NCBI RefSeq assembly: GCF_001610875.1
Contig: NZ_CP011272.1
Span: 694,397-758,396, forward strand
Direction: 5' to 3'
Length of the DNA: 64,000 bases
Origin: Pirellula sp. SH-Sr6A
GTDB taxonomy: Bacteria > Planctomycetota > Planctomycetia > Pirellulales > Pirellulaceae
Shown in pieces: positions 37,753-46,240 of this stretch. The notes beneath the pieces are model-generated. The model ran no database searches. It was not told the DNA's origin and saw only the letters and a list, made by a program, of their open reading frames with translations. How positions within the stretch are numbered: position 1 is the stretch's first letter; each line of letters begins with the position of its first letter. Made by a program: the position numbers and the translations under genes.

Positions 37753-39117
37753 TCAACTTTTGGGGAGCACTCCAAGATCTGCAAGGGGAGAATCGGCATC
37801 GCCAAATGCGTTAGCAGAAACCCCCATTCGGTTCATCACCGAGAGGTAGAAACTGCAAAGCTTTCGCTCATTGTCATGGCGCTTTCCGAAGTCTAGAACT
37901 TGACCAGTCTTCATGGTTCCCCCCAGACCACCGACAGTGAGGAGAGGTACCCTCGTTGAGTCGTGCTTGCTACCCGACCACATGTTGTTGACGAACATCA
38001 AGCAGGAATTGTCGAGCACCGTTCCATCTCCTTCTTGCATACTCTCGAGCTTCTGGGCCAAGTATGCCAATTGACTGCTGTAGTACGTTGTCACACGTTC
38101 CCATTCGTCCGATCCATCATCGTGTGAAGCGAGGTGGTGAGGTTTGCGCACATCCAAGAAGGGATAGAAAAGCCCTGAGATGTCGCGGCACAAGAGAAGC
38201 GATGCAACCCGGGTGCGGTTGCTTTGAAACGCGAGGGCGATGATATCGCACATCAACCGCATATGCTCGCGAATGTCCTCTGGCAGTCCGTTGTCAGGGC
38301 GATTCATCTGAAAGACCGATTCCCCGGTTCTCGCGACCTTCTCCTGAACTTTGTCGATGCCGCCGCGCTGCCGCTGAATCCGTTTCTCGACTTCTCGAAT
38401 ACTGGTCAAATACTCATCGAGCTTCGCCTTGTCCCGAGCGCTCGCTCGCATCGCGAGACTGGACGCATCTTCTCGAACTCGGTCCAAAATACTCTTGTTG
38501 CGTTGAGTTCCCCGATTCTCGAATAGGCTATCAAACGCGAGCGACGGATAGACCTCCATAGGGACCGGAGATGTCGCGTTTTGCCAAGAGATATGAGAGC
38601 TATACGCCATGGAGAAGTTGGTCTCGTGGTACCCAGTCGTCGGTTGCTCGCATCCCAAGACCAAACTAGGAACCACATCGTCTTGCCCAATCGCATTCGC
38701 AATCGCTTGATCCACACTTATGCCACCCCGCAATTCCGCACCTTTTTGAAGCGCAGCGCCGGAAAGGATGTTGCCGGTTTGACCAGGGTGGATGCCGACT
38801 CCAGTGGCATTCTTATTGAACAGACCATTGATCACATTCAACTTCGACTTCACGCTCTCCAGCGGATGCAGGCAGCGGCTGAGCTCCATACCTTCCGGAG
38901 TTGTCTTGGCCCACCAATGATCGGGGTGCACGCCGCAAGCCATAAACATGACTCCAAAGCGTTTAGGCAATTCGGAAGCGACGTCGTCGGTAGGAGCCTC
39001 GCCCCCCCACACTTGCAGTGATTCAAGCCAGGGAAGTCCGACGAGAACGCCTGTTCCGTGAAGCCATTTGCGCCGCGAGATAGTTTGAGCACGACGTTCA
39101 GGTTGATTCATTTTCAT
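37753..39117 (-). CDS. DUF1552 protein, Tat-exported
   Basis: A 454-residue DUF1552 protein, a planctomycete/myxobacterial family of unknown activity that is related in style to DUF1501 sulfatase-like proteins. A twin-arginine-type signal (SRRKWLHGTGVLVGLPWLES) directs export of the folded protein. Family landmarks include FGVMFMACGVHPDHWW, HPGQTGNILSG and a C-terminal MNRMGVSANAFGDAD. The gene starts inside the stop of the DUF1592 gene (ATGA, 4-nt overlap), so the two are translated together and probably work together. The last residues, GVLPKS, appear to be coded by the end of the adjacent IS3 remnant, so the native C-terminus may be altered. Confidence 0.9.
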   Translation of the reverse strand: MKMNQPERRAQTISRRKWLHGTGVLVGLPWLESLQVWGGEAPTDDVASELPKRFGVMFMACGVHPDHWWAKTTPEGMELSRCLHPLESVKSKLNVINGLFNKNATGVGIHPGQTGNILSGAALQKGAELRGGISVDQAIANAIGQDDVVPSLVLGCEQPTTGYHETNFSMAYSSHISWQNATSPVPMEVYPSLAFDSLFENRGTQRNKSILDRVREDASSLAMRASARDKAKLDEYLTSIREVEKRIQRQRGGIDKVQEKVARTGESVFQMNRPDNGLPEDIREHMRLMCDIIALAFQSNRTRVASLLLCRDISGLFYPFLDVRKPHHLASHDDGSDEWERVTTYYSSQLAYLAQKLESMQEGDGTVLDNSCLMFVNNMWSGSKHDSTRVPLLTVGGLGGTMKTGQVLDFGKRHDNERKLCSFYLSVMNRMGVSANAFGDADSPLADLGVLPKS

Positions 39118-42100
39118 CGCGAGACTCCTTCGTCCGAGGTAACGGTTTGCAGACGTTTATAGCGAAATGGCTGGCTCAGCACGATTCGTTCAAAAACGGT
39201 ACTGATTCGATCGCCATTGTTTTGGAGGGACTGGACCAGTTCATCGACCTGAACATCATCGGCAAGAATCAACGTTCGCCCGAGCGCGAACGCCAAAAGA
39301 CTTTCGCAGAAATGACGCCTGAAGTCCTTCATCCGATGCTGTTCGATATACGATCGGAGCCCCTCGATACCGATGGCTTCCTCGCCATTAGGAAGGGTGG
39401 CGTCGGTTTGAACAGGACGCCCAACAAGATCTTTGTCCCGTGGCCGTCCGATAGGATCGAATCCTTCCAGGAGCAAGCCTGCTGAATCAAATCGATTGTG
39501 GCAAGCGGCACAACTCGGGTGCTCGCGATGGATGGCGAGCGCTTCACGAAGCGTCTTATCTCCCAATTGTTGATCGGAGTTGGGGAGTTCGGGAACATTG
39601 GGTGGTGGAGGTGGTATCAGCTCACCTAACAGTCTTCGCACAACCCAGTAGCCTCGTTTGACAGGACTGGTACGAAGCCCCGGAGAATTCTGGGTGAGGA
39701 ATACCGCCATCGATAGAATGCCTCCCCGTTGATATGCCTTGGCCTCCGGAAACTTCGACCATTTTCTTTCATAGACCGGTGGAGCATTCTTGACGCCGTA
39801 ATGGGCAGCCAACCGGCCGTCTAGAATCATATAATCCGCATCGAGTATGCCTGCGACGGTACCTTCGTTCTGGATCAAGTAATGGAGGAACTCGATCGGC
39901 TCTTGCCACATCGAGTTTCGCAACTCGTCGTCGAATGACGAAAACTGATTGCGATCCACTGCTTGATGCTGATCGAACCTTCGGAAGTCCAGCCAATTTC
40001 CAAGAAACTCGAGCAACATGCTTTTCGCTCGAGGATCGGCCAGCATGCGTCGGGACTGCGCGACCAATACTTCTGGGTCGCTCAATCGACGTTGTCGCGC
40101 CAGTTCCATCAATTCAGGATCCGGCGTACTGGACCATAGAAAGTAGCTTAACCGAGACGCGAGCTCTTCGTCGCGGAGAGGTACCATCGACTGCCCAGTC
40201 GTCCCTATCGCAGTCGTCTCTATCGGCAGTGCAGAGACTTGTTTTGATTCGCTCCCCTCTTCCCGGACGTCATCCTCGCTCTGCGACGAAACACCTTGCA
40301 AGTCCCAGCGATAGAGATAACTCGGGGATACTAAAATGGTAACGAGGGTATCCTCCATCGCAGCGCGGTGATCACCCGACGATTGTTGCAAACTCTCGTC
40401 GTAATACTGCAAGATTCTCTCTCGGTCTCGGTCGGATAGCGGTCTTCGAAACGCGCGGCCAGCGAACTCGAGCAAGCTCGTTAATTGCTTGGGGCGAGCG
40501 TCTTTCCACTCCGTTTCAAACGCCCGGATCCTGGTATTGCAATCTTTGAAATGGAAAGCGACGGCCTCGCGAAGTGCTGACGAGGATTCCATGCCTTCGA
40601 GTTTATTCAGATAAGCATTAGCAAATCGATCGATCATCTCCTGACTCAAGGCCGATTTGTCTTCAGCGCGAACGAAATGAAAGGCGGGGTCGTTGATAAA
40701 GGATGCTTCGGCTCGCTCGAACCAAATAAAACCGCTGTATTGCCGCGTCGGAACATGGCTGATGAAATTCAGCTCCTCCCACAAACGATCGAGCTGCCGT
40801 TTTTGTTCTTCGTCGAGAATCAATTCGCAGAGCGGTTGATCGTCACGAAAAAAGCCCATCATGCTATGAAAGCCGGCACTGAGCAGCCGTCCCTTTGCTT
40901 CCCTTGCCGCCTCCTCCTCGGAGATATGTGCCCGGCCTCGCTCGAGCACGAGAAACGTGTCCGGGAAGACCGCCCCAAATTTTTCATAGTCTCTTTGAAC
41001 GGCCTCTTTCGCTTCGGTCCTGTCCGACTTCATGATTGCCAATTCGGCTTCGGACAACACACAATCTTTGGTGTCTGGGTTGATCGCGTCATGATGTACG
41101 AGTCGTCGAGAAGCCGCCATCTTGCGATTCTTCCACAAGACCAATGGCTGCGATCCACCGTTCATTCCGCGAGCACCGTTGAGGTTCGCGATTCGGACTC
41201 GCATTGGACGACGCGTCTCCTCGATCCATTTGGCGATCTCTTTGCATTCTCGCTCCACCGTGTCGGACTTTTCGCGGTCACTGGGCAATGCATTCCAACG
41301 GCGCTGCAACTCCTTGGATGGTCCCCACTGAATCGTTACGTCATGCAGATGCTCCCAAATCGTCGTCAGATAGCGCGGACTCAACTTGCGAGCTCGAGCG
41401 AACTCCACCCATCTATCGGCCCCAGGAGACAAGGATTCCCGTTTCCCCTCCCAAGCAGCGAGGAGATACGCATCGAGGGCAGTGGGTTGGGCTCGATAGA
41501 AATCGACGATTCGCTGCACACAATACTTATCGCGATCGGTATCGGTTACCACGGGGTGCGGGGCGAAACGAATTCCATCGGGGGTCAAGAGCATGTGGTC
41601 CGCCACGCTGCGTGCAGCGTCCAAATACTTATTGATAAGCGAAGGGGAAATGGTCAGCGACTCTGCGGAGTTATCGAACCCCGCCGCATTGGCGGCATCG
41701 ATCGGGAAACTCGCTGTCGGTTTGATGTCGACGCCGGTCAAATCGCGGATGGAGTAGTTGTATTCCGAGTTGCTAAGGCGCCGTGTACTGATGGGGCCAG
41801 GATCGCCCGCACGTCTAGCGGCCTCGCTCGTTCGAAAACGGCTCGCCCAATCTGCAAGACGCTTGCGCTCTTCGTCGCTCGGGAGCTCCCCGGCATCGGC
41901 GGGAGGCATCTCTTTCTCATGGACGCGGGAGAGGATCGCTTGCCAACTCCCCCACGCTTGATCGATATCCGACGGGGACCGAAAAATCGACATGTCCAAT
42001 TTCGCTTCGGCCGTCGCAGAGTCGTGGCAATCCATGCAGTATTTGCTGAAGAGCGGAAGGATCTCGGCCTCAAAGGTTCGAGCTAACTCTTGATCGGTCT

Positions 42101-42257
42101 CGCTCGTATCGGCGGCAGAATTGCCTGCAGCCAGGGGAATGGGGAATTCCTCGGCGAAGGTTTTACGTGGAATAGGGATCCCAGCCAGGAGCCCAAAGGC
42201 AATGGCAATGCAAGCGACAGCAACCAAACTTTTTCGGAAGTGGAATCCGACGTGCAT
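39114..42257 (-). CDS. DUF1592/DUF1588-family multi-domain c-type cytochrome protein
   Basis: A 1047-residue exported protein of the planctomycete type that combines a cytochrome c domain with DUF1587, DUF1595, DUF1592, DUF1588 and DUF1585 modules. The signal peptide is MHVGFHFRKSLVAVACIAIAFG. A first heme site CMDCH follows in the N-terminal PSCyt1-like domain, and a second CxxCH (CAACHNRFD) lies in the C-terminal part. RRLSNSEYNYSIRDLTG marks DUF1587, RAFRRPLSDRDRERI DUF1595, and GILSMAVFLTQNSPGLRTSPV DUF1588. ATG 42257 is chosen for its signal sequence; the frame runs further upstream without good support. The family is linked to polymer breakdown or periplasmic redox work, but its reaction is unknown. 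It forms an operon with the DUF1552 gene. Confidence 0.9.
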   Translation of the reverse strand: MHVGFHFRKSLVAVACIAIAFGLLAGIPIPRKTFAEEFPIPLAAGNSAADTSETDQELARTFEAEILPLFSKYCMDCHDSATAEAKLDMSIFRSPSDIDQAWGSWQAILSRVHEKEMPPADAGELPSDEERKRLADWASRFRTSEAARRAGDPGPISTRRLSNSEYNYSIRDLTGVDIKPTASFPIDAANAAGFDNSAESLTISPSLINKYLDAARSVADHMLLTPDGIRFAPHPVVTDTDRDKYCVQRIVDFYRAQPTALDAYLLAAWEGKRESLSPGADRWVEFARARKLSPRYLTTIWEHLHDVTIQWGPSKELQRRWNALPSDREKSDTVERECKEIAKWIEETRRPMRVRIANLNGARGMNGGSQPLVLWKNRKMAASRRLVHHDAINPDTKDCVLSEAELAIMKSDRTEAKEAVQRDYEKFGAVFPDTFLVLERGRAHISEEEAAREAKGRLLSAGFHSMMGFFRDDQPLCELILDEEQKRQLDRLWEELNFISHVPTRQYSGFIWFERAEASFINDPAFHFVRAEDKSALSQEMIDRFANAYLNKLEGMESSSALREAVAFHFKDCNTRIRAFETEWKDARPKQLTSLLEFAGRAFRRPLSDRDRERILQYYDESLQQSSGDHRAAMEDTLVTILVSPSYLYRWDLQGVSSQSEDDVREEGSESKQVSALPIETTAIGTTGQSMVPLRDEELASRLSYFLWSSTPDPELMELARQRRLSDPEVLVAQSRRMLADPRAKSMLLEFLGNWLDFRRFDQHQAVDRNQFSSFDDELRNSMWQEPIEFLHYLIQNEGTVAGILDADYMILDGRLAAHYGVKNAPPVYERKWSKFPEAKAYQRGGILSMAVFLTQNSPGLRTSPVKRGYWVVRRLLGELIPPPPPNVPELPNSDQQLGDKTLREALAIHREHPSCAACHNRFDSAGLLLEGFDPIGRPRDKDLVGRPVQTDATLPNGEEAIGIEGLRSYIEQHRMKDFRRHFCESLLAFALGRTLILADDVQVDELVQSLQNNGDRISTVFERIVLSQPFRYKRLQTVTSDEGVSR

Positions 42258-42568
42258 AAACAGCTCAAGAAGTGTTGGCGGGGAGGGTGCCGGTCCATAA
42301 AACGTACCGGATGGCAGGGATCTCATTCTAAACCATCCCGAAGTCCTTCGCGACATGCAGGAGGAATGATGTGGCTGGGGAATTTAGGAGGCGTATTCCG
42401 AATCGATGAAAGATTCTTGGGAAACGGAGCGGTTTCTAGGGGCCTGCAGATCGGGTAAACTCCAAATCATTGAAGACTCCCGCGGGGAGGGGAAGCATGG
42501 TCTGGACGACAGGCAACAAGCATCTCCCCACGGGTCAAAATCCATCACGCTGCAGGCTTTGAAAACTT
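42258..42568. other. Divergent 311-bp spacer
   Basis: Separates the leftward DUF1592 gene from the rightward DUF3127 gene. No gene is evident. A small CTCCC/GGGAG hairpin lies near 42477-42488. No clear promoter consensus was seen. Confidence 0.45.
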
Positions 42569-43077: not shown

Positions 43078-45141
43078 ATGAGATTACGCACATGGATACG
43101 TATCGGAATCAGTGCCGCGATAGCTTGCTCTGCATGGGGACGGGAGTTTGCATTGGCAGATGAAGGAATGTGGCTCTTTAATGCCGTTCCCAAAACGGAG
43201 TTGAAGAAGAAGTACGGATTTGAGCCAACCCAAGAATGGCTGGACCATCTCATGCTTTCGAGCGTCCGTTTCAACTCGGGCGGTTCCGCATCCTTCGTCT
43301 CTTCCAATGGTTTGGTTCTGACCAATCACCACGTTGCGTCCGACACGCTCTACAAACTCTCTACGGCGGAGCACAATTACAACGAAGACGGATTCTTGGC
43401 GAAGTCACAGGCAGAGGAAATCAAAGCTCCCGATCTGGAACTGAATCAACTGATCTCGATTGAAGATGTTACCGCTCGGGTTAACAGTGCGGTCGCGGCG
43501 GGACTCAGCCCACAGGACGCCGCCAAAGCTCGACAAGCCGCCATGGCCCAGATCGAAAAAGAGTCGTTGGACAAAACCGGTTTGCGCAGCGATGTGGTAA
43601 CCCTATTCGGCGGGGGTAAGTACCATCTGTACCGGTACATGAAATACACCGACGTTAGGTTGGTCTGGGCGCCCGAAGCAGGTAGTGCATTCTTCGGAGG
43701 CGATGCAGACAACTTCGAGTACCCACGCTATTGCCTCGATGTCACCTTGTTTCGCGTTTATGAAAACGGGAAACCGGCAAAGATTGAACACTTCCTCAAA
43801 ATGGATCCCAACGGGGCCAAAGAAAACGATCTCGTTTTCGTATCGGGAAACCCGGGCCGTACACGCCGAATTTTTACCCATTCGGCCATCGAGTTCCAGC
43901 GTGACCACTCGATGCCCCGAACCATGAATTATCTCCGTCGCAAGGAGATTCTCATGCAGCAATATGGTCTGACTGGTCCGGAACAAAAGCGACGCGCGAA
44001 AGACGATCTCTTCGGGATCCAAAACTCCCGAAAAGCAATCGGCGGCATGTTGGCCGGATTGCAAGATCCTGCCTTTGCAACTTCGAAGAAGAAGGAGGAA
44101 TCGGCCCTGCGCGAGAACGTTTCTTCAGACCCCAAGCTCAAGCCATTCGCAGGTGCTTGGCAACAAATCGAACAATCGCAGGCGAAACGAAAGGAATTGC
44201 TCACCCAGTCGGTGAGCCTTCGCACGAAATTGTACGGCGTTGCTGAAACTCTCGTGCTCATGGCGATCGAAGACACCAAAGCCAGCGCGGAACGTTTTCG
44301 TGAATACCGAGACAGCAACCGCGAATCGTTTCTTCAAGAGCTATATTCCGATGCGCCAATGTACGACGATCTAGAACGCATTCAACTCGCAGATGAACTT
44401 GCTCGGTTATCTGAAGATCGAGGAGGAAACGACCCGTTCGTTCGCAAGGCACTTCAAGAAAAGGGGCCAAAAGATCGAGCGTCGGAGCTGATCGGAAAGA
44501 CGGAATTGTTCTCGGTTGAAGGTCGCAAGAAGATTGCAGCTGCTGGACTAGAGGGACTGAAGAAATCAACCGATCCTATGATTCAACTTGCCCTCGCCAT
44601 GGAACCCGAGTACCGACGCGTTCGCGAACTTACCGACAGTATTGATGAGACGGAACGGCAGGCCTATGCCAAGATCACCGAGGCCAAGTTTGCGGTGGCA
44701 GGCGACACTCTCTATCCCGATGCGACCTTCACTCTCCGCCTTTCCTACGGACAAGTAAAAGGATACGAGAGCAACGGCGGGACCGTCCCTGCCGCCACAA
44801 CACTCGCGGGAGCCTTCGATCACGAGTCCAAACACCTTGCCGAAGAGCCTTGGATTCTCCCCAAGAGCTGGAAGTCGGCGAAAGATAACTTCAACGGTTC
44901 GGCTCCCTTCAATTTTGTTTGTACTGCGGACATCATCGGCGGCAATTCGGGATCCCCTGTCGTCTCCAAAGAGGGCGCAATGGTTGGGATCATTTTCGAC
45001 GGCAATATCGAAAGCCTGACCGCAGATTTTTACTACACCGATCAAGTTTCGCGAGCCGTTTCCGTCCACATCGCTGGTGTCCTCGAGGCAATGCGAAAAA
45101 TTTACGATGCGGGACATCTGGCCGACGAAATGGGGAAGTAG
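43078..45141 (+). CDS. S46-family dipeptidyl-peptidase (DPP7/DPP11 type)
   Basis: A 687-residue exported serine peptidase that removes dipeptides from peptide N-termini in the periplasm. The signal peptide covers residues 1-27 (IRIGISAAIACSAWG...ALADEG), and the mature start EGMWLFN matches the family. The trypsin-like triad is present: H85 in GLVLTNHHV, D221 in YPRYCLDVTLF, S624 in GGNSGSPV. The helical S46 insert lies between the last two. The specificity residue that separates DPP7 (hydrophobic) from DPP11 (acidic) could not be assigned by eye. It probably feeds dipeptides from extracellular protein breakdown to the cell. The start is the first ATG, with AAGGAAAG about 5 nt upstream. Confidence 0.92.
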   Translation: MRLRTWIRIGISAAIACSAWGREFALADEGMWLFNAVPKTELKKKYGFEPTQEWLDHLMLSSVRFNSGGSASFVSSNGLVLTNHHVASDTLYKLSTAEHNYNEDGFLAKSQAEEIKAPDLELNQLISIEDVTARVNSAVAAGLSPQDAAKARQAAMAQIEKESLDKTGLRSDVVTLFGGGKYHLYRYMKYTDVRLVWAPEAGSAFFGGDADNFEYPRYCLDVTLFRVYENGKPAKIEHFLKMDPNGAKENDLVFVSGNPGRTRRIFTHSAIEFQRDHSMPRTMNYLRRKEILMQQYGLTGPEQKRRAKDDLFGIQNSRKAIGGMLAGLQDPAFATSKKKEESALRENVSSDPKLKPFAGAWQQIEQSQAKRKELLTQSVSLRTKLYGVAETLVLMAIEDTKASAERFREYRDSNRESFLQELYSDAPMYDDLERIQLADELARLSEDRGGNDPFVRKALQEKGPKDRASELIGKTELFSVEGRKKIAAAGLEGLKKSTDPMIQLALAMEPEYRRVRELTDSIDETERQAYAKITEAKFAVAGDTLYPDATFTLRLSYGQVKGYESNGGTVPAATTLAGAFDHESKHLAEEPWILPKSWKSAKDNFNGSAPFNFVCTADIIGGNSGSPVVSKEGAMVGIIFDGNIESLTADFYYTDQVSRAVSVHIAGVLEAMRKIYDAGHLADEMGK

Positions 45142-45235: not shown

Positions 45236-46240
45236 ATGGTCACAAACCTATTGAGTTATCGCTCGGTCGTGGTGTCGGGGGCCTTGTGCCTTGCCATCTT
45301 GTGGGCAACGGATCCCATGGGTACGAGAAGCAGTCAAACGGTTGCAATCGCGGCCGAGAGCGATGGAGCGGATTCGAATTATCCCAAACGAATCCGACTG
45401 GAGCATGTTCCAAACTGCATTCAAGTGACCGATGGAGTCTACTCAGGGGGACTTCCAGAGGGAGAGAAAGGATTTGAAGAGCTTCAAGCGCTCGGGGTAA
45501 AAACTATCATCAGTGTCGATGGTATGACACCCGACATAGGGACTGCCAAGAAGTTTCAACTCCGTTACGTTCATTTACCGCACGGGTACGACGGGATATC
45601 AACAGGAAGAATGCTGGAAATCGCGAAGGGATTGCACACCCTGCCCAAACCTATATTCATTCATTGCCACCACGGCAAACACCGCAGCCCAGCTGCGACA
45701 GCTGCCGCATGTGTGACTTTAGGATGGATCGACCAATCCACAGCGAACAAAGTACTTCAAGTGGCTGGGACCAATCCCAACTATCGAGGCTTGATTTCAT
45801 CGGTCACCAACGCCAGAGCGATCCCTTCAGCGGACCTCGACAAGGTAGAAGGAAAATTTCAGGAAATTGCAGCGGTTCCACCCTTGATCGAAACCATGGT
45901 CGCCATGGACGAGCACTTCGAGGCCATTGCGAAAATCGATCCCTCGCTATCCCAAGATCACAAATCTCGAACGGTGTTGGCAGATCGAGTGCTGCTAATG
46001 ACGGATCATTACACAGAACTTCAACGAATGGCGGAACAAGAAAATGCCCCGAAGGAATACCAAAACCTTCTCAAAGTAGGGGAGTCCGTTTGCGTCGAAC
46101 TCGAAACCGAACTACGCCAGCCTAGTACCGCAGCCAAGCCGTTAGATGTCAAGCCACTGGTCGAGCGCCTAAAATCGAACTGCACGTCATGTCATCAACT
46201 ATTTCGTGATAACCGAACGCCAGACAAACCGCAACGCTGA
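45236..46240 (+). CDS. Secreted PTP-like phosphatase fused to a cytochrome c'-like domain
   Basis: A 334-residue exported fusion. After a signal anchor (residues 1-40) comes a tyrosine-phosphatase-like domain at about 55-195 with the active-site loop HCHHGKHR (C144 to R150, the HCx5R pattern) and the usual TIISVDGM and YVHLPHGY lead-in. A four-helix-like region follows (about 215-320) that ends in CTSCH (C316, C319, H320), the C-terminal heme-binding pattern of cytochrome c'. So a predicted periplasmic phosphatase would carry a covalent heme. The reaction and the partner are unknown. ATG 45236 is used in preference to an earlier in-frame ATG at 45194. The next gene starts 27 nt downstream. 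Confidence 0.8.
   Translation: MVTNLLSYRSVVVSGALCLAILWATDPMGTRSSQTVAIAAESDGADSNYPKRIRLEHVPNCIQVTDGVYSGGLPEGEKGFEELQALGVKTIISVDGMTPDIGTAKKFQLRYVHLPHGYDGISTGRMLEIAKGLHTLPKPIFIHCHHGKHRSPAATAAACVTLGWIDQSTANKVLQVAGTNPNYRGLISSVTNARAIPSADLDKVEGKFQEIAAVPPLIETMVAMDEHFEAIAKIDPSLSQDHKSRTVLADRVLLMTDHYTELQRMAEQENAPKEYQNLLKVGESVCVELETELRQPSTAAKPLDVKPLVERLKSNCTSCHQLFRDNRTPDKPQR

Follow-up and report, generated by a model that had tools for sequence, protein, structure and literature searches.

Gene and Domain Organization

The window, that is, the whole stretch of 64,000 nucleotides of Pirellula sp. SH-Sr6A DNA analyzed here, carries on its forward strand an open reading frame for a protein of 334 amino acids (45236-46240; ATG at 45236, stop codon at 46238-46240). 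As judged from sequence and structure models, the single chain has an export-type N-terminus and carries two intact and co-conserved sites, one of a phosphatase and one for a heme. The following parts were distinguished:

45236..46240, + strand: whole gene, predicted exported CX5R phosphatase-class II cytochrome c fusion of 334 amino acids, with full-length relatives
45236..45358, + strand: N-terminal export region, residues 1-41, with the hydrophobic stretch SVVVSGALCLAILWA; disordered and of low confidence in the model
45386..45847, + strand: phosphatase domain of DSP/PTP fold, residues 51-204 (Foldseek and VIA, and a profile match to TpbA)
45590..45592, + strand: D119, candidate general acid (alignment to TpbA Asp105)
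45662..45685, + strand: P-loop H143-C144-H-H-G-K-H-R150, with nucleophile C144 and phosphate-binding R150, both invariant
45848..46210, + strand: four-helix heme domain of class II cytochrome c/b562 type, residues 205-325 (structure models and profiles)
45896..45898, + strand: M221, predicted sixth (distal) heme ligand (116/116 relatives; in register with b562 residue 7)
46004..46027, + strand: conserved polar face of helix B, positions 257/261/264 (D-E-R here, E-E-R in most relatives)
46181..46195, + strand: CTSCH, predicted site of covalent heme c attachment with H320 as the proximal ligand (115/115 non-truncated relatives)

A preliminary description of this DNA had placed an HCx5R motif at C144-R150 and a CTSCH motif at the end of the same chain, and both are present at these positions: residues 143-150 read HCHHGKHR and residues 316-320 read CTSCH. 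The AlphaFold2 model of the whole protein has a mean pLDDT of 84.7. Of 114 relatives, 111 show a hydrophobic stretch at the N-terminus by a crude count, and in 32 this stretch adjoins a lipobox-like motif; the predicted attachment of heme to CxxCH also implies export of the protein.

A gene for an S46 peptidase (window 43078-45141, + strand) lies on the same strand and stops 94 bases before the fusion gene. Upstream of the peptidase gene, on the other strand (window 39114-42356, −), a planctomycete protein of 1080 amino acids is encoded that has PSCyt1, PSD2-PSD5, and PSCyt3 domains and CxxCH sites of its own.

The Phosphatase Domain

In the AlphaFold2 model, residues 51-204 matched the TpbA structure 4r0s with a Z-score of 16.9 and an rmsd of 3.0 over 156 residues (Foldseek and VIA), and a profile match to TpbA 2m3v was obtained with an E value of 8.5e-9. 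Other good fold matches of the same residues were SsoPTP, VHZ, Siw14, and AtPFA-DSP1; a match to YopM looks like noise. Two marks of the PTP/DSP superfamily are present, namely an HCX5R P-loop with its Cys and Arg and the DSP/PTP alpha-beta fold. D119, in the loop before the P-loop, was aligned with TpbA Asp105, which is the proposed general acid of that enzyme (PMC4409338). Judging from sequence and model, the phosphatase fold is of the dual-specificity type and closest to that of the periplasmic TpbA.

AtPFA-DSP1 is an inositol-pyrophosphate phosphatase with the P-loop residues Cys150, Lys151, Arg152, Lys154, His155, and Arg156 (PMC9038691). As the cationic P-loop C-H-H-G-K-H-R has its G-K-H-R in common with the inositol-pyrophosphate phosphatases, the comparison hints, as a fair guess and no more, at a substrate with several phosphates and a strong negative charge, beyond phosphotyrosine alone.

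The Heme Domain and Its Predicted Coordination

The full-length model predicts a four-helix bundle with helices at 216-232, 242-268, 273-294, and 306-324, and the same fold was obtained with a pLDDT of 90.8 when the heme domain was modelled alone with 99 relatives. Sequence profiles of the domain match cytochrome c', c-556, and b562. The best structural match was Kusta0087/0088 (Z 13.8, 106/111 residues, rmsd 2.3), while b562 was matched with a Z-score of about 11 over 96 residues. GPCR structures that also came up were probably matched via their BRIL (b562) fusion partner and are not relatives. A CxxCH motif in the last helix near the C-terminus and a four-helix bundle fold, which together characterize class II cytochromes c, were both found. 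The helical region that had been noted before CTSCH is thus a predicted four-helix bundle, and the C-terminal part has a class II cytochrome c/b562-type fold that is not unlike cytochrome c'. The window protein scored 13.5 bits and its relative L028 25.8 bits against Pfam PF01322, both below the curated cut-off of 26.5, which is a scoring convention and not a biological feature. When E values up to 10 were admitted, 27 of 30 relatives matched this family, the best with 4.3e-6. Another open frame in the window genome, of 338 amino acids and with a hydrophobic N-terminus (L142:1501-2514, region C1:4004963-4005112), has a C-terminus that is recognized above the Pfam cut-off as cytochrome c' (CNKCHESYR), with no family assigned to its N-terminal part.

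Helical bundles reach moderate Z-scores by chance, and the register of the heme ligands was therefore examined as well. The two heme ligands of b562 are Met7 and His102. In the structural alignment, residue 11 of the domain model corresponds to b562 residue 1 and model residue 120 to b562 residue 106, which puts M221 (model residue 17) on Met7 and H320 (model residue 116) on His102 provided that the few residues at either end of the alignment are paired without a gap. An HMM alignment placed Met7 three residues away from M221, whereas the structural alignment placed it on M221; M224 could be dismissed as the Met7 equivalent on the strength of the structural alignment and because position 224 varies between I, L, M, and V across the relatives while M221 never does. 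The invariant methionine at the sixth-ligand position, in the register of b562 Met7, favors the prediction of a six-coordinate heme, and the sequence and the model indicate that its ligation is probably Met/His. Classical cytochrome c', by contrast, has an open five-coordinate heme site with a non-liganding distal residue. Six-coordinate Met/His ligation would be better suited to a role in electron transfer or in redox sensing than to the sensing of NO or CO.

Distribution and Conservation of the Fusion

Strong relatives, taken as profile matches with an E value of 1e-45 or better, were found in 133 of the 392 Planctomycetota genomes sampled, about a third. The match reached the heme site in 130 of these genomes, and in the other three (G200, G250, and G270) it is partial because it is cut by a contig end. 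A protein search in 60 relatives gave matches in 34 genomes, mostly via the C-terminal end, and a scan of named genomes revealed 519 stretches that encode a relative, of which 80 were retained. Isolates with a relative include Rhodopirellula baltica, Rubripirellula obstinata, Neorhodopirellula pilleata, and Thalassoglobus neptunius. Outside the Planctomycetota, copies are rare (1 of 194 genomes of Verrucomicrobiota and 3 of 101 of Abditibacteriota, counts that include the genomes that led to those phyla). The window genome itself has a second copy, 39% identical to the window protein, and the two branch apart in a quick tree.

An alignment of 30 sequences showed H143, C144, G147, R150, M221, E261, R264, C316, C319, H320, and R324 to be invariant. 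C144, R150, and M221 were found in each of 116 distinct relatives, and CxxCH together with R324 in each of the 115 complete ones. Part of this set had been collected by means of the HCHHG pattern; a recount of the 59 relatives that were found without it gave C144 and R150 in 59/59, as in the full set. Three relatives outside the motif filter (L040, L071, and L125) have both motifs and intact loci. D119 is Asp in 106 of the 116, Asn in 8, and Asn, Ser, or Ala in 10 altogether, while on the face of helix B Glu is found at 257 in 104, Glu at 261 in 110, and Arg at 264 in 110 of them. This conservation rules out a chance motif or a frame artefact, and both sites look selected, given that C144, R150, and M221 never change, that no complete copy lacks CxxCH, and that most copies retain D119. 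The search for the domain pair across planctomycetes that the preliminary description had called for thus found strong relatives in 133 of 392 genomes, three of them cut by contig ends, and no complete close homologue without CxxCH was found.

Two apparent exceptions, L027 and L120, proved to be one and the same truncated contig. Matches to the phosphatase part only (L144, L146, L150, and L153-L159) belong to other phosphatase types, mostly with HCxxGxDRT-like loops. A phosphatase with the loop HCHHGKHRGG and without CxxCH (L145:545-1498, G202:C171) is followed by an apparent second, degenerate phosphatase-like repeat.

Split Genes and Further Fusions

In two other Planctomycetota genomes, a related phosphatase and a class II cytochrome are encoded by separate, adjacent genes on the same strand:

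L147:794-1962 (G060:C171): split pair, genes less than 100 bases apart
L148:543-1639 (G191:C283): split pair, genes overlapping by a few bases

The phosphatases are open frames of 218 amino acids with the loops HCHAGRHRAS (L147) and HCKNGKHRSA (L148), each followed by a small cytochrome downstream, and each of the genes carries its own export-type N-terminus. The split phosphatases are related to the fused phosphatase (hhalign E 4.4e-24) and the split cytochromes to the fused heme domain (E 3.5e-7 and, for the CxxCH end only, 1.7e-5). The two parts thus stay together even when they are not fused.

The phosphatase-cytochrome module was also seen in larger proteins, the extra parts of which are real Pfam domains. 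It is fused in frame to a Na-dependent nucleoside transporter in L166:1415-3772 (G422:C186), follows a 3-keto-disaccharide hydrolase and a GDSL domain in L029:1516-3822, and lies behind an NPCBM domain in L028:1-2337. In L149:1482-3473 (G328:C1), it is fused to a Na/Ca exchanger and its P-loop reads TCETGRDR; with the leading His lost from this sequence, catalysis is possibly altered. The frames in L165 and L167-L171 extend far upstream, but these GC-rich extensions are apparently spurious. A conserved gene neighborhood was not found, the commonest cluster of neighbors occurring in 8 of about 79 loci.

A Proposed Redox-Controlled Phosphatase and Its Alternatives

Thiol phosphatases are redox sensitive, and we know of none with a redox cofactor of its own. 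The retention of the pairing in about a third of the sampled Planctomycetota genomes suggests that the heme controls, or works with, the phosphatase outside the cytoplasm. We tentatively favor an exported two-domain redox phosphatase, the activity of which would be set by the redox state of the heme; that one domain controls the other is suggested only by their fusion and by how well it is conserved. Heme would be attached outside the cytoplasm, and the six-coordinate Met/His heme would exchange electrons with redox partners in the periplasm, alternate between Fe(II) and Fe(III), and so set the phosphatase activity. The four-helix bundle could do this by changing shape against the phosphatase domain, or the low-pKa Cys144 could be kept reduced and active, or be switched off, outside the cytoplasm. 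A dedicated interface is suggested by the conserved Glu and Arg residues that the fused domain has on helix B; this Glu/Glu/Arg face may be a contact between the domains or with the heme. The widespread and maintained fusion, the TpbA-like fold, the b562-like ligand register, and the split gene pairs speak for such a redox phosphatase. Against it count the replacement of D119 by Asn, Ser, or Ala in 10 of 116 relatives, by which classical general-acid catalysis is not universal, the finding of no partner gene conserved nearby across the loci, and the consideration that a one-electron heme would offer no obvious thiol-disulfide switch.

The same evidence bears on three other readings. The CX5R domain might be a sulfur or thiol site, as in DUF442/Blh, to or from which the heme gives or takes electrons. 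Such a cysteine redox enzyme would give a direct reason for joining a redox cofactor to a reactive cysteine, and the DUF442 structures 3gxg/3gxh are among the top fold matches of the phosphatase domain. The accompanying sequence similarity is weak, however, with scores below the family cut-offs (13.7 bits against 625 for the window protein with Blh NF040641, E 0.021; 18.9 bits against 26.1 for the relative L031 with BLH_phosphatase PF04273, for which the window protein was not listed). Both in fold and in sequence, the best matches are to true phosphatases such as TpbA, the general-acid Asp is kept in most relatives, and no neighboring gene of any kind recurs, so that we regard a redox enzyme of this type as unlikely. 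The chain might also combine an exported phosphatase and an electron carrier of ordinary kinds, fused for co-localization only, which would fit the tolerant architecture apparent from the unrelated partners of the module in L166, L149, L029, and L028. Such a lack of coupling seems improbable to a similar degree, as no complete close relative has the phosphatase and heme parts apart and the pair persists as adjacent genes in two genomes.

The preliminary description had proposed a heme-gated phosphatase in which a cytochrome c'-like heme binds NO or CO. The cytochrome c'-like domain and the CxxCH motif of that proposal held, the domain being placed within the class II cytochrome superfamily; its best structural match, Kusta0087/0088, is presumably an NO-binding anammox cytochrome complex. 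The binding of NO or CO is weakened by the methionine that all 116 relatives have at the sixth-ligand position, as it predicts a closed six-coordinate site from which the gas would have to displace Met. A phosphatase switched by gas is accordingly rated very unlikely.

No description of the fusion was found in the open-access literature searched, subscription journals being mostly outside this scope, and the view that the arrangement is a new one can be upheld: the domain families were already known, while the fusion and its conservation appear to be new. The redox-controlled phosphatase could possibly be the first heme-controlled cysteine phosphatase, an extracytoplasmic enzyme in which a covalently bound redox heme would directly govern the active-site cysteine, an extension that we put forward with more doubt. 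If true, it would link the state of respiration to the dephosphorylation of exported proteins, inositol phosphates, or surface glycans, and if the domains are coupled, the redox state of the periplasm could act directly on dephosphorylation outside the cytoplasm. As isolates such as Rhodopirellula baltica, Rubripirellula obstinata, and Thalassoglobus neptunius carry copies, the idea is open to experiment.

Comparison with Known Systems

TpbA (PA3885), the periplasmic dual-specificity tyrosine phosphatase of Pseudomonas aeruginosa, resembles the window protein in its DSP fold and Cys/Arg P-loop and probably in its export, and its Asp105 is aligned with the candidate general acid D119. It differs in the P-loop (HCKHGNNRT versus HCHHGKHRS in the window protein), the identity being about 20%, and no heme domain is described for it in the available part of the report (PMC4409338). 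The PFA-DSP/Siw14 inositol-pyrophosphate phosphatases have the same fold and a P-loop that ends in G-K-H-R as in the window protein, but they are eukaryotic and lack the Asp general acid (PMC9038691) as well as a heme. The phosphatase-like domain of the DUF442/Blh sulfur transferases is similar in fold and weakly so in sequence, the scores seen being below the cut-offs; the partner fused to Blh is a dioxygenase and not a cytochrome.

With the class II cytochromes c (c' and c-556) and b562, the heme domain shares the four-helix bundle and the heme-binding His near the C-terminus. The C-terminal pattern CxxCHxx(F/Y)R is common to the class II cytochromes c and the fused domain, and the Met/His register to the latter and b562, which binds its heme non-covalently in contrast to the CxxCH of the c-type. 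Kusta0087/Kusta0088 of the anammox planctomycete Kuenenia, the best fold match, has its position 32 in register with M221, but this position is a Cys, the two cytochromes form a complex, and the matched chain has no phosphatase domain. The class II cytochromes c and b562 are free-standing small proteins, whereas the bundle described here is fused to a phosphatase and has a conserved polar face on helix B.
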